Source: a virus. From it: a stretch of 20,334 nt of DNA. The position numbers were made by a program, and so were the translations under genes. Under the pieces are notes generated by a model. That model did no database searches, had not been told where the DNA came from, and worked only from the letters and a program-made list of their open reading frames with translations. Every line of letters starts with the position of its first letter. Within the stretch, counting starts at the first letter, position 1. The DNA is taken from positions 1-20,334 of the IMG/VR virus record IMGVR_UViG_3300031857_001734. One strand, 5' to 3'. Of this stretch, positions 3,928-8,162 are shown piece after piece.

Positions 3928-4347
3928 ATGGCGATTGTCCAAACTCAAACCACTAGCTTTAAGGCGCAGTTGTATCAAGGTATTCATGACCTGACGACCG
4001 ACGTTATCAAGATTGCCTTGTATACGGCTAACGCTAATTTGAATGAAGACACAACTGTGTACAGTTCAACTGATGAAGTGGCCAACACGGGCACTTACGT
4101 CGCTGGTGGGGCACAGCTAACTCCCATCACAATAGGCACGTCTGGATACACAGCTTACGTGGGCTTCCCAAACATCTCGTGGACAGGCGCAATCACAGCT
4201 AGGTGTGCTTTGATTTACAACGTCACACAGGGTAACAAGTCTGTAGCCGTGTTGGATTTTGGTTCAGACAAAACTTCTACAACCACGTTCACCATTACCA
4301 TGCCAACCAACGGCCCAACCACTTCATTGATTAGGAGTTCAAATTGA
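3928..4347 (+). CDS. Putative virion surface/decoration protein (copy A)
   Basis: A 139-residue beta-rich protein starting at ATG 3928, one base after the previous stop. It opens MAIVQTQTTSFKAQLYQGIH and then has IKIALYTANANL, TYVAGGAQLT and IYNVTQGNKSVAVLDFG, and it ends in TFTITMPTNGPTTSLIR. The protein at 4556-5044 contains the same landmarks in the same order, so the two are paralogues. Size, Thr/Ala/Gly richness and position after the adaptors fit a head-decoration or tail-surface protein. From memory, similar proteins are annotated only as phage structural or hypothetical. I infer a virion location and cannot specify the site. Confidence 0.7.
   Translation: MAIVQTQTTSFKAQLYQGIHDLTTDVIKIALYTANANLNEDTTVYSSTDEVANTGTYVAGGAQLTPITIGTSGYTAYVGFPNISWTGAITARCALIYNVTQGNKSVAVLDFGSDKTSTTTFTITMPTNGPTTSLIRSSN
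4333..4337 (+). promoter_or_regulatory. Ribosome site fixing a TTG start
   Basis: AGGAG lies six bases before TTG 4344, inside the end of copy A of the surface protein. It is the main evidence that translation of the 63-residue protein starts at this TTG rather than at a later ATG. Confidence 0.7.
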
Positions 4348-4535
4348 TTGTTACGACAACCAAAGGCGACATGGACGATTCCTTGCTTGAAAAGCGAGAA
4401 GGTTCATTAGATAATGACAACGAGTCAACCACATGGGTGGAGTATTGGTTGGATGGTGAACTTGTCCACCGTTCGGTGCACGTTCAATTGAAGAAATCGG
4501 TGGGGCTGAAAGTCGAAGCCGCATCTTTCGGTTAA
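4344..4535 (+). CDS. Small acidic protein, TTG start
   Basis: A 63-residue protein whose TTG start sits in a TTGA overlap with the previous stop and has an AGGAG site at ideal spacing. The first half is acidic (TKGDMDDSLLEKREGSLDND). The second half is more ordered: TTWVEYWLDGELVHRSVHV, then a basic strand KKSVGLKVEA. The WLDGELVHRSVHV phrase recurs, from memory, in tiny proteins next to phage structural genes. It separates the two paralogous surface proteins. A chaperone or minor particle protein for them is possible. No enzyme motif is visible. Confidence 0.7.
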   Translation: MIVTTTKGDMDDSLLEKREGSLDNDNESTTWVEYWLDGELVHRSVHVQLKKSVGLKVEAASFG

Positions 4536-4555
4536 TTTTTTAAAGGAGCCTCATC

Positions 4556-5044
4556 ATGGCAAATACTCAAGCAATGTGTACATCATTCATGGAAGAAATT
4601 CTAGAAGGCGTGCATAATTTCACGACCGGTACAGGCAACACTTTCAAAGCCGCGCTTTTTGTTGCCACTGCTAACACTTCTTCAAGTACAACTTTGTGCG
4701 CCAGCGTAACTGCTTATGCAACAACGGTTAATACAATTCCCGAAGTGTCAGGTACAAATTACGTAGCTGGGGGCGTAACAGTAACAAACGGCACATCGCC
4801 TTTGGCTACAAACACTTCTACTACGGCGGGCACTGCCTATTGGACTCCCAGTGCTAGTTTGACATACACAAACGTAACATTGACTACGGCATTTGATACT
4901 GTGTTGATTTACAACTCATCGGCTTCTAACAAGGCTGTTAGCGTTCATACCTTTGGTTCACAGACCGTGACTGCCGGTACGTTTACGCTGACAATGCCTG
5001 CTAACACAACATCTACTGCTCTGATCCGTTTGGCAACAACCTGA
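4556..5044 (+). CDS. Putative virion surface/decoration protein (copy B)
   Basis: A 162-residue paralogue of the protein at 3928-4347, with a strong ribosome site (AAAGGAG at 4542-4548) before ATG 4556. Shared landmarks are TSFMEEILEGVHNFTTG against the copy A start, KAALFVATANT, NYVAGGVTVT, VLIYNSSASNKAVSVHTFG and FTLTMPANTTSTALIR. Copy B carries an extra Thr/Ser-rich stretch in the middle (about residues 40-60). The strong ribosome site suggests higher production than its neighbours, as expected for a many-copy surface protein. Its stop at 5042-5044 lies two bases before a hairpin that masks the next gene's ribosome site. Confidence 0.75.
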   Translation: MANTQAMCTSFMEEILEGVHNFTTGTGNTFKAALFVATANTSSSTTLCASVTAYATTVNTIPEVSGTNYVAGGVTVTNGTSPLATNTSTTAGTAYWTPSASLTYTNVTLTTAFDTVLIYNSSASNKAVSVHTFGSQTVTAGTFTLTMPANTTSTALIRLATT

Positions 5045-5045
5045 T

Positions 5046-5061
5046 CCTCCTGTCTAGGAGG
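5046..5061 (+). promoter_or_regulatory. Hairpin hiding the ribosome site of the repeat-protein gene
   Basis: CCTCCT (5046-5051), a four-base loop GTCT and AGGAGG (5056-5061) form a perfect six-pair stem. The right arm is the Shine-Dalgarno sequence for ATG 5069; the left arm is an anti-Shine-Dalgarno sequence. The stem begins two bases after the upstream TGA, so a ribosome finishing copy B would hold it open. This predicts translational coupling of the repeat protein to copy B. Confidence 0.6.
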
Positions 5062-5068
5062 GCAGTAA

Positions 5069-6061
5069 ATGACAACCGCATGGGGCGCAGGGGCGTGGGG
5101 CAGTAATACTTGGGGAGGTCAGCAATCTGAAATCTCCGGTGTTGTTGCGTCTGGCTCTGTAGGCTCTGCGGGTGTTAGCGTTACTGTAGCCCTAACGGGG
5201 GTTTCCGCATCGGGGGCGGTTGGGACTGCAACTGTAGCCGAGCGATCTTTAGCGTTAACAGGGGTTCAAGCCTCTGGCGCGGTTGGTACGGTTGGTGTTG
5301 AGTTTGTTTATGAAGTACCCATAACAGGGGCCTCTGCTTCTGGTGCGGTTGGCTCTGTTGTTCAATCGGCATCTGTTGCACTGACGGGTGTCTCTGCTAC
5401 GGGTGAAGTTGGTACTACTGTAGTATCAACTACAGATGATGAGACGGGTGTTCTGGGTATTGGTGCAGTTGGCACAGTTGAGCCTAGTCTTTCACTTGAC
5501 TTAACAGGTGTAGAGGGCACAGGCTCTGTTGGCAGTGTTGCAGTTGGCACTATATCGGTAGCGTTGACAGGTGTTCAAGCCACAGGCGCAGTTGGTACAC
5601 AGACTCCGGATATTGCTCTGGCTTTGTCTGGTATTGCGGCAAGTGGCGATGTTGGCTCTGTTTCGGTTGGTACAGTTGCTGTTGCACTGACGGGTGTTGA
5701 GGCTACTGGTGAAGTTGGTGTTATTACACGCAAGTTTGTGCTTGATGGCCTTGAGGCCACTGGCTCGGTTGGTACTGCTAGTGCGGGTGTTACAGTTGCG
5801 CTGACTGGCGTGTCTGGCTCTGGACTAGTGGGTGATGATGTTCCTGTTAGATCGCTCGAATTGTCGGGTGTATCTGCAGCGGGCGCTGTTGGCACGGTGT
5901 CGATTGGCGCAAGGTTGATTGCTATTACAGGCAGTCAAGCAATGGGTAATGTTGGCAGTTTTGGCGTGTTTTATTGGTCGTTAATTGATGACAGCGAGAA
6001 CGCAAACTGGCAGAATATAAACAATACGCAGTCTTCGGGCTGGACGGTAATTTCTACTTAG
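5069..6061 (+). CDS. 14-unit TGVxAtGxVG repeat protein, probable virion fibre
   Basis: This 330-residue protein begins with a Trp/Gly-rich leader (MTTAWGAGAWGSNTWGG). From residue 23 to about 298 it consists of fourteen repeats of 18-22 residues with consensus (T/S)GVxA(T/S)GxVGxV followed by a variable, valine/serine-rich linker. It ends with an unrelated, aromatic tail (WSLIDDSENANWQNIN onward). The repeats have alternating small and beta-branched residues and no cysteine, which suggests a beta-solenoid or a chain of small beta units. It sits between a surface-protein pair and the tail fibre, so a fibre or decorating protein is likely. From memory, similar repeats occur in other marine and freshwater phages without known function. 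Translation appears controlled by the hairpin just upstream. Confidence 0.75.
   Translation: MTTAWGAGAWGSNTWGGQQSEISGVVASGSVGSAGVSVTVALTGVSASGAVGTATVAERSLALTGVQASGAVGTVGVEFVYEVPITGASASGAVGSVVQSASVALTGVSATGEVGTTVVSTTDDETGVLGIGAVGTVEPSLSLDLTGVEGTGSVGSVAVGTISVALTGVQATGAVGTQTPDIALALSGIAASGDVGSVSVGTVAVALTGVEATGEVGVITRKFVLDGLEATGSVGTASAGVTVALTGVSGSGLVGDDVPVRSLELSGVSAAGAVGTVSIGARLIAITGSQAMGNVGSFGVFYWSLIDDSENANWQNINNTQSSGWTVIST
5135..5963 (+). repeat. Fourteen degenerate tandem repeats of about 60 bases
   Basis: The DNA encoding the TGVxATGxVG units repeats with recognisable phrases such as ACGGGTGTT followed by GAAGTTGGT or GCGGTTGG. Copies have diverged at synonymous and linker positions, so the array is old or under selection for protein sequence, but it could still recombine to change copy number in frame. 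Confidence 0.75.
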
Positions 6062-6071
6062 GAGTCAACAA

Positions 6072-8162
6072 ATGACTACAGGCGCAACGGGACAACTAGG
6101 TTTAGCTCTTCCAGTACAGGGCGAGCTTTCCGGCACATGGGGCGATACCGTTAACAACGGTATTACGCAGTACACCAACATTGCTATTGCAGCCACACTG
6201 ACGCTGACAAATGATGGCGCGGTAACTCTGGCCAATACAACAGGCGATGCCTCGGCTTCCAACATCGTATCTAGCTTGACAGGCGCGGGTACGGTTACGG
6301 CTCAGTTCGCCATCGTGCGGGTTACGGGTACGCTGACCACAACTAAAGTTGTGACGTTTGGCTCGGCAGGTTCAGCCCCATACAGTAAGACATACGTGGT
6401 GGTCAACGCTGCAACGGGCGGGTCTGTAAGCTTCACTGCATACGGTGGATCAGGCGTCACTGTTGCTGTGGGCGAGAGTGCATACGTGTATTACAACGGC
6501 ACTAACATTGTAAAAGTTTCTTCAACCGTGGCTACTGGCGTTACATCTTTCCAAACGTCACTAAGCGGCTTAACCCCATCTACGGCTACAACAGGCGCAG
6601 TCACATTGGCTGGCACATTGGGTACATCTAGCGGTGGAACAAACTTAACATCATTCACATCAGGCGGTGTAGTTTACGCCTCAAGTTCTAGTGCATTGGC
6701 TACTGGCTCTGCGCTTACTTTTGATGGGACTAATAATCTAAAACTTCAAACAGGCGCTGGTGTTACATCAACATTAAATTTGAACAACAGTGACGGTAAC
6801 GGAACCCTGTCTCAAATAAATTTTGGGTATACCGCAGTTCCAAATCACGGAAACATAAAGTACACGGGCGATTTTGTTTTTAGCCTTAATGCAAACGCCG
6901 AACAAATGCGCCTAACCTCGACAGGTCTGGGTATTGGGACGAGTTCGCCTAGTGCAAAACTTAATGTGTATTCAACAGCAGGCGCAATTGTTGCCAAGTT
7001 TGACAGTAACCAAAGCGGTGGTGCGCAAATCGGGTTTTATGGTTCTGGAACTATTAACGGCTATGTTGGAACAAGCGGTAATTGGCTTGGCACTTCTGCA
7101 ACAGATATGGCAATTATTGCTGAAACAAGCAAATCCATTACGTTCTTTACTGGTGGCTCTGGAACAGAGCGTATGCGCCTCGACAGCGCAGGCAATCTAG
7201 GTCTTGGTGTTACACCGAGTGCTTGGGGAAACACATACAAAGCATTTCAAGCAGGAACGACAAGCGTTTTGGCGGGTGTTGCATCTCAGACAAATAACTA
7301 TGTATTACACAATTTTGTCAATTGTTACAATGACAATACAAACTGGGTATACATTGCTTCACAAGAAGCGGGACGATACGAAATAGCCCGTAATACTCAT
7401 AAGTGGTTCAATGCCCCATCAGGCACAGCAGGAAACGCTATCTCCTTTACCCAAGCAATGACGCTAGATGCGTCTGGGAATTTGGGTGTGGGCGTAACAA
7501 GCATGAACACAACGCTTCATGTTCAAGGTGCTGGAACAACCGATGGAAGCATTAAGTTTAACCAGCAATTAAACAGCACGGGCGCATATAACGCAACGCC
7601 AATGAGCGGAACAATGGTTGCGCTTAAATACAATACTGCTGGTGATTATGCGGGTATGGGTGGCTGGTCAATTGGTAAAGAAAACGCAACCGATGGTAAC
7701 TACGGAAGTTACTTTGCAATTCACACTAGGTTTAATGGCGCGGCTAATGGAGAAAAAGCCAGAGTTTCTTCTGATGGCGGTTTCTCAGTAGGCACAACAG
7801 CAAACCCCGGGGCTGGTGCAATCTATGCAACAGGCAACATCACTGCGTACTACTCTTCCGACATCAAGTTCAAAGAAAACGTGCGTGACATTCCTGATGC
7901 TTTGGCTACAGTGAACGCTATTGGTGGTAAGTTGTTTGATTGGAAAGACGACTACATTGAGTCCAAGGGCGGTGCTGATGGCTACTTTGTACAGAAAGCT
8001 GACTTCGGTGTGGTTGCCCAAGATGTACAGAAAGTATTCCCAATCGCTGTGCGTACCCGTGAAGATGGCTCATTGGCTGTTGACTACGAGAAACTTGGCG
8101 CACTGGCATTTGCCGCATTGGTTGAGTTGACTAAACGTGTAGAGGCATTGGAGTCCAAATAA
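6072..8162 (+). CDS. Tail fibre with C-terminal S74 autoprotease chaperone
   Basis: A 696-residue tail fibre or spike. It starts at ATG 6072 with an AGGAG site at 6060-6064. The N-terminal 55 residues (QGELSGTWGDTVNNGITQYTN) are a common phage fibre opening, probably for virion attachment. The middle is Gly/Ser/Thr-rich beta sequence with repeated fibre phrases such as MRLTSTGLGIGTSSPSAKLNV and MTLDASGNLGVGV. Residues about 595-696 are a peptidase S74 intramolecular chaperone: SDIKFKENV supplies S596 and K601, spaced five apart as in the Ser-Lys dyad of endosialidase chaperones. FGVVAQDVQKVFP and a terminal helix (LVELTKRVEALESK) follow. This domain should drive trimerisation and then cut itself off just before S596. 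The stop overlaps the next ATG (TAATG). Confidence 0.88.
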   Translation: MTTGATGQLGLALPVQGELSGTWGDTVNNGITQYTNIAIAATLTLTNDGAVTLANTTGDASASNIVSSLTGAGTVTAQFAIVRVTGTLTTTKVVTFGSAGSAPYSKTYVVVNAATGGSVSFTAYGGSGVTVAVGESAYVYYNGTNIVKVSSTVATGVTSFQTSLSGLTPSTATTGAVTLAGTLGTSSGGTNLTSFTSGGVVYASSSSALATGSALTFDGTNNLKLQTGAGVTSTLNLNNSDGNGTLSQINFGYTAVPNHGNIKYTGDFVFSLNANAEQMRLTSTGLGIGTSSPSAKLNVYSTAGAIVAKFDSNQSGGAQIGFYGSGTINGYVGTSGNWLGTSATDMAIIAETSKSITFFTGGSGTERMRLDSAGNLGLGVTPSAWGNTYKAFQAGTTSVLAGVASQTNNYVLHNFVNCYNDNTNWVYIASQEAGRYEIARNTHKWFNAPSGTAGNAISFTQAMTLDASGNLGVGVTSMNTTLHVQGAGTTDGSIKFNQQLNSTGAYNATPMSGTMVALKYNTAGDYAGMGGWSIGKENATDGNYGSYFAIHTRFNGAANGEKARVSSDGGFSVGTTANPGAGAIYATGNITAYYSSDIKFKENVRDIPDALATVNAIGGKLFDWKDDYIESKGGADGYFVQKADFGVVAQDVQKVFPIAVRTREDGSLAVDYEKLGALAFAALVELTKRVEALESK

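Follow-up and report, generated by a model that had tools for sequence, protein, structure and literature searches.

In several known systems an RNA structure hides the ribosome site of a downstream gene until the upstream gene is translated. A review of translational coupling (PMC12548453) describes this for the gene pairs VII-IX of phage f1 and coat-lysis of phage MS2 and for E. coli rpmI-rplT, with spacings of −4, −50 and +52 nt and with longer structures than the one reported here. As presented there, two models of coupling, RNA unfolding and reinitiation, are both left open; the review also cites a screen in which coupling efficiency showed a negative correlation with structure immediately downstream of the stop codon. 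The synthetic element synTCE carries a hairpin of at least 6 bp around the second ribosome site; the hairpin prevents independent initiation and is opened by the upstream ribosome. According to its description, synTCE worked best with stop and start at −1 to 5 nt, and coupling fell off gradually at larger distances (PMC11602170). In T4 genes 38 and 25 an intervening hairpin shortens the distance between the Shine-Dalgarno (SD) sequence and the ATG, and the spacing given for these split (“accommodated”) sites falls from 22 to 5 in gene 38 and from 27 to 11 in gene 25 (PMC3014915). A split ribosome site is also reported for E. coli thrS (PMC3936740).

The junction described here, from a group of uncultured phages, resembles the first group and synTCE in that a hairpin encloses the ribosome site of the second gene and lies within reach of the ribosome translating the first. 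The window, that is, the whole stretch of DNA analysed, is itself a virus record of 20,334 bases. At the stop codon of a gene that we call copy B, a hairpin hides the SD of the following repeat-protein gene; it is probably a translation gate, predicted to couple both genes. The features of the junction are as follows.

4541–4558, + strand: start region of copy B, less structured, serving as control
4556–5044, + strand: copy B (162 aa), lying upstream of the repeat gene and of unknown function (PHROG 644); the hairpin begins at its stop codon
5042–5044, + strand: stop codon TGA, with U and G predicted to pair with A5064 and C5063
5045–5051, + strand: left arm, the wobble-paired U5045 plus CCTCCT (5046–5051)
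5052–5055, + strand: loop GTCT, which varies among relatives
5056–5062, + strand: right arm AGGAGGG, the SD of the repeat gene, with AGGAGG at 5056–5061
5069–6061, + strand: repeat-protein gene, 330 aa, with a WG-type leader, putatively gated

The preliminary description had recognized a stem CCTCCT-GTCT-AGGAGG that buries the ribosome site of the repeat gene, and this was confirmed, the SD being the right arm. It had placed the start of the left arm two bases after the stop; only one base, T5045, lies between the TGA (5042–5044) and the hairpin (5046–5061). GCAGTAA separates the hairpin from the repeat-gene ATG (5069–5071), and the gap from stop to ATG is 24 nt. The predicted fold adds a U5045-G5062 pair and the two pairs of the stop-codon U and G.

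The local hairpin had an energy of −10.5 kcal/mol (z −2.3), and 4 of 200 shuffled sequences were equally stable. In a 126-nt context the total energy was ordinary (z 0.07), and the same local hairpin still formed. Among the 24 listed gene starts of the window, the repeat gene had the lowest energy over the 33-nt start region (−13.3, the next being −8.2). Searched at up to two mismatches, the pattern CCTCCTNNNNAGGAGG had a single match in the window, the hairpin itself, with no mismatch. By itself this is weak evidence, since 0.47 matches are expected in the window and 36 of 100 shuffles had at least one; it is the location together with the relatives that makes the evidence strong.

Two familiar kinds of element were searched for at this site and rejected. 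A covariance-model search of positions 4900–5200 against Rfam gave no match with E up to 1, which rules out a known Rfam RNA family. An intrinsic terminator, a G + C-rich hairpin with a T-run, does not fit either, as the hairpin was absent from the five terminator-like sites of positions 4300–6300.

Both copy B and its neighbour copy A matched PHROG 644 (unknown function). At 4344–4347 the copy A stop TGA overlaps a possible TTG start of a small gene (4344–4535), which is separated from copy B by a 20-nt gap, with a start region far less structured than that of the repeat gene. The gene after the repeat gene (6072–8162) is tail-fibre-like, with an S74 chaperone domain. The predicted model of copy B had a mean pLDDT of 74.7. 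Foldseek with this model gave no match at E up to 0.001, and a profile search of solved chains with copy B gave none at E up to 1. In a second structure comparison with the model (4556–5041), the ten best rows were all phage or archaeal-virus proteins, mostly tail, connector, fibre-adaptor or baseplate proteins. The top match was a Klebsiella phage KP1 chain (Z 9.5, 136 residues, 3.6 Å), and the fibre-tail adaptor of phage GP4 was also found (Z 6.6, 116 residues, 3.5 Å). It is plausible from this modelling that copy B is a structural protein near the fibres. The earlier name “surface protein” says too much, because the model only resembles fibre-adaptor and baseplate proteins, and mostly at middling Z. 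For five further repeat proteins searched against PHROGs, one weak match was obtained, for one protein.

Relatives were collected by scans with the copy B protein of the window and four other copy B proteins, by two pattern scans, and from two bacterial contigs. Each protein scan contributed the best 80 of about 600 matches, and the junction counts given below are not natural frequencies, because the relatives were chosen by likeness to the five copy B queries. For these counts a cut-off of 140 bits was used, by which weaker matches, mostly copy A, were dropped. At this cut-off the sample held 364 junction instances, with 188 distinct 120-nt contexts and 131 distinct sequences of stop plus gap. 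Two distant relatives came from the bacterial genome scan, one on a Variovorax and one on a Rhodanobacter contig, and their gaps are short. A phage collection gave just three short DNA matches. Starts in the relatives were set by rule, as the first ATG or GTG within 75 nt followed by 60 open codons. For L162 and L275 the start was shifted manually to the ATG with which the FG leader begins, and L231 and L321 (leader MLYGITAFSEAPF) were assigned to the FG group by hand. A short gap is one under 18 nt. Simple rules, written after the data were seen, sorted the architectures into the SD-hiding types Ia, Ib, Ic and Id, class II, FGopen and longopen.

Among the 188 sampled junctions, those before WG leaders comprised 60 SD-hiding hairpins (37 Ia, 10 Ib, 12 Ic, 1 Id), 56 short gaps and 8 long-gap junctions in which no clear hairpin was seen (longopen). 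Those before FG leaders comprised 38 class II junctions, 5 long gaps with an open SD (FGopen) and 7 short gaps. The others were 12 short gaps before other genes and two junctions without an assigned start, one of them short by sequence. Short gaps were thus present in 76 of the 188 junctions, and neither hairpin design was found in 13 of the 111 long-gap junctions (8 longopen, 5 FGopen). The FGopen junctions (L033, L342, L344, L348 and L360) have an SD, GGGGAGGG, directly before the ATG and outside any strong hairpin; in four of the five folds a separate hairpin lies at the stop codon, ahead of the SD.

The SD-hiding hairpins differ in their arms between the four types and still pair. In type Ia, that of the window, CCTCC(T) pairs with (A)GGAGG and the loop is free to vary, being GTCT, AAAC, CCCT, TATT, AGAT, AAAT or GCAT. 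In type Ib, GATC and GCCT pair with AGGC or GGGC and GGTC, and the hairpin also pairs bases of the stop codon and extends to the start codon. Type Ic pairs CCG[AG]CTC with GAG[TC]CGG and has GTG as start codon, and type Id pairs TCCAGCTTC with GGAGGCTGGA. The preliminary description had also seen in the left arm a mimic of the 3′ end of 16S rRNA; this was rejected, as the left arms of the other types are different (GCCT in Ib, CGACTC or CGGCTC in Ic, CCAGCTTC in Id).

Together the four types account for 30 of the 35 distinct long-gap WG sequences (15 Ia, 7 Ib, 7 Ic, 1 Id). A strict SD-hiding rule was satisfied by 24 of these 35, compared with a mean of 1.1 and a largest value of 2 in 20 shuffled sets; for the 39 FG long-gap sequences it was satisfied by 2 (shuffles: mean 4.0, largest 7). 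When halves of the same type were combined, the mean energies were −10.1, −11.5, −14.1 and −14.8, and 11 of the 12 combinations across types lay between −5.4 and −9.9. The exception was the left half of Ib with the right half of Id (−11.8). In a swap test with the 35 WG long-gap sequences, own halves gave −10.51 and swapped halves −7.07 kcal/mol, and none of 2000 permutations was as good. After thinning to 11 and 9 sequences the result was again 0 of 2000, with differences between own and swapped halves of −3.90 and −4.43, compared with −0.40 and −0.61 in dinucleotide-shuffled sets. The comparison thus points to a structure retained by compensatory change between the hairpin types.

A chance inverted repeat without function could have been entertained for the window alone, where the pattern is not rare. 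It is contradicted by the swap test, also after thinning, and by the unstructured control starts, and we consider it hardly credible.

Covariation of the pairing, proposed earlier as a check, was thus borne out between types, and within types it was not. In type Ia one pair changed on both sides; it involves base 2 of the stop codon and occurs as G-C, G-U and A-U. Two C-to-T changes remain paired as U-G, and the innermost pair is lost in 4 of 15 sequences. The count of two-sided changes in type Ia was not beyond shuffles, being reached by 190 of 500. The A-U, G-U and G-C seen at one pair of type Ic were likewise not beyond shuffles (143 of 500). Within-type covariation is unprovable here because the sequences of one type are too uniform. 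The preliminary description had named a case that would speak against coupling, relatives with the SD kept and the left arm randomised, and none was seen among the 48 Ia, Ib and Id junctions with the leader M[TA]TAWG. The same leader follows other, unhidden ribosome sites at five long-gap and four short-gap junctions. The clearest exceptions with the leader type of the window are L108, L113, L139, L149 and L151, which precede MATAWG leaders; their junctions, TACCCT[GA]ATGTAAGGTTGGT, have neither design and a weak fold (−2.9 to −3.5).

The freedom of the stems and loops bears on two further readings. An operator for an RNA-binding repressor of the repeat gene, from phage or host, would have a precedent in T4, where proteins bind hairpins in start regions, for example that of gene 43 (PMC3014915). 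In T4-like gene 43 operators the loop bases are kept, whereas here type Ia alone has seven loops and the other types share no letters, so that we regard an operator as very unlikely. A temperature switch, in which the SD-hiding hairpin melts as temperature changes, agrees with the usual anatomy of RNA thermometers, an SD within a hairpin. The SD-hiding hairpins range from −7.7 to −17.5 kcal/mol (37 °C), a spread that does not suggest one tuned melting point, and the class II relatives leave the SD unhidden; we give this reading only the slightest credence.

We also scanned viral contigs for CCTCCT-loop-AGGAGG-ATG. Among 124 distinct matches examined, 68 had a downstream ORF of at least 50 aa or open; of those 68 matches listed, 26 also had an upstream stop in reach, which in 8 lay within 10 nt of the arm. 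One of these 8, L451, belongs to the set of copy B/repeat-gene junctions. The same motif near an upstream stop was seen in L379, L398, L418, L458, L463, L476 and L493, on other phage contigs and before other downstream genes.

Before FG leaders we found the opposite design. In the 38 sampled class II relatives the order is stop, SD-like purines, hairpin, 5–8 nt and ATG. An SD core lies 5′ of the hairpin in 32 of 34 class II sequences, L016 and L275 being without such a core. Along the chain the SD is 18–28 nt from the ATG (median 24.5), and with the hairpin looped out, 5–8 nt (median 6). A strict class II rule was satisfied by 31 of the 39 FG long-gap sequences (shuffles: mean 1.4, largest 4) and by none of the 35 WG long-gap sequences, as in their shuffles (0, largest 0). 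Swapping the halves of class II made the fold worse, again with 0 of 2000 permutations as good. A MAFFT alignment of class II yielded no pair counts, the arms being inconsistently aligned. By their anatomy the class II relatives fit a putative split ribosome site of the T4 gene 25/38 type. For the window's own hairpin a split site was rejected, as its SD is the 3′ arm and none of the 35 WG sequences fits.

Such structure is absent from the start of copy B. Over 33 nt, the copy B starts in the same contigs had a mean of −3.0 kcal/mol, with 4 of 137 at −8 or lower. Long-gap starts had means of −12.6 before WG leaders (31 of 36 at −8 or lower) and −12.7 before FG leaders (37 of 39), and short-gap starts had a mean of −6.5 (15 of 61). 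Other junctions of 15–40 nt at the same loci, a control picked mechanically and including many doubtful ORFs, had a mean of −4.4, with 54 of 365 at −8 or lower compared with 60 of 74 copy B junctions. An earlier set comprised 69 distinct long-gap sequences; for 43 of them no more than 5 of 100 shuffles were as stable, and the median z was −2.4.

Of the 35 WG and 39 FG sequences, 29 and 33, respectively, folded more stably on the coding strand than on its complement. Shuffles lean to the coding strand too, but less (−0.48 versus −1.88 for WG, −1.47 versus −3.06 for FG), and the excess of the coding strand over shuffles is only about 1.4–1.6 kcal/mol. Selection as DNA rather than RNA was rejected, as the coding strand out-folds its complement beyond shuffles. 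The inverted repeat could otherwise be an element of DNA or of RNA processing or stability, for instance a recombination point for leaders, with the overlap with the SD incidental, and the repeat-gene leaders do change often at this junction. We judge this highly improbable, since the SD lies in the right arm far oftener than in shuffles, the hairpin is not terminator-like, and the strand difference points to RNA.

Translational coupling is the best reading of these sequence comparisons and the most likely role of the hairpin. The ribosome site of the repeat gene is held in a stable predicted structure: in free RNA, GGAGG (5057–5061) was almost never open in silico, and opening it cost 7.5–9.5 kcal/mol. 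As the hairpin begins at the stop codon, the structure is predicted to be within reach of a ribosome translating copy B. With the bases up to 5054 blocked, the in silico cost of opening the SD dropped to 0.2–0.8 kcal/mol; the front edge of the ribosome was taken at stop+12. If copy B were not translated, hardly any repeat protein would be made. On reaching the TGA, a terminating ribosome would lie over the left arm, and the SD would be freed just past its front edge. The repeat gene could then be started by the same ribosome, by its small subunit, or by a new ribosome before refolding; refolding would compete, because the SD is usable by a new ribosome only after the terminating one has left. 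The second protein is thus probably made only after the first. Its synthesis would depend on copy B and would probably stay below that of copy B itself, and a dependent but modest output is expected from the 24-nt gap and the cited coupling data.

The hairpin could instead be a fixed brake on initiation, with the strong SD in its stem giving a small constant output of the repeat gene without coupling to copy B. The closed SD of the free RNA would suit a brake. The published screen counts against efficient coupling, because structure after the stop codon went with poorer coupling in the results cited by the review (PMC12548453), and a gap of 24 nt is long for reinitiation by the published spacing data (PMC11602170). 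For a simple brake there would be no need for the hairpin to begin precisely at the stop codon, which it often takes in, and the short gaps of other relatives also favour coupling; we therefore consider a brake rather unlikely. For the coupling proposed in the preliminary description, the buried SD, the conserved RNA hairpin and the release of the SD by a terminating ribosome in silico all speak in favour, and the word “strict” is not upheld. That the amount of repeat protein would be tied in a fixed ratio to copy B goes beyond evidence from comparison and prediction.

The two designs stand before one and the same repeat gene, and which of them occurs goes with the type of its N-terminal leader. 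The WG and FG proteins share a TGVxASGxVG repeat body and differ in about the first 20 residues; at least three such units were present in 112 of 124 WG and 47 of 49 FG sequences, some of the others being cut by contig ends. In the classified sample, no WG junction was class II and no FG junction was of an SD-hiding type. On a tree of the 188 copy B proteins, the architecture labels need at least 38 changes, versus 99.7 with shuffled labels; they are therefore inherited, yet often changed. Only 25 of the 180 inner branches are well supported, and these alone force four changes for Ia, four for Ib, two for Ic and three for class II. Between copy B proteins of at least 90% identity, the architecture was shared by 268 of 300 pairs with alike leaders versus 34 of 114 with unlike leaders; at lower identity, pairs with alike leaders shared it in 339 of 473 and 405 of 683 cases. 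These sequence data fit a leader and its start RNA moving together, and plain descent may also be the source of the association. Tentatively, and with some doubt, we propose that an exchangeable start cassette runs from the copy B stop to roughly codon 20 of the repeat gene and is made of a leader (WG or FG) and its own RNA architecture. If so, phages would swap the N-terminal end together with the way its output is tied to the preceding gene.

Each of the two designs is known by itself, and in the open-licence full texts there was no report on these phages or on one junction alternating between both. Unlike f1, MS2 and rpmI-rplT as the review describes them (PMC12548453), the hairpin of this junction begins at the stop itself, 24 nt ahead of the start codon, and the coupling is one that we infer. 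In synTCE, as described (PMC11602170), the stop and start codons overlap and the ribosome site is in the loop, whereas at this junction the SD forms the 3′ arm and the two codons are 24 nt apart. A hairpin likewise hides the ribosome site of mobE of Aeromonas phage Aeh1 and lowers initiation, according to a mention in the T4 source (PMC3014915); mobE is a homing endonuclease gene, unlike the repeat gene. Class II resembles T4 genes 38 and 25 in the hairpin that shortens the SD-ATG distance, with the difference that its SD, often a weak one (GGGG, AGGG), follows immediately on the upstream stop, and the hairpin of the window is the reverse of that T4 design as described there (PMC3014915). In the cited literature, coupling by a hairpin at the stop codon has been described for individual model systems and for synthetic designs. 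The 188 distinct natural versions of this junction show a start-site structure kept by selection, in two opposite designs and one plain short-gap design for the same gene, and they form a natural collection in which to measure how the ratio of neighbouring proteins is set by structure next to a stop codon.
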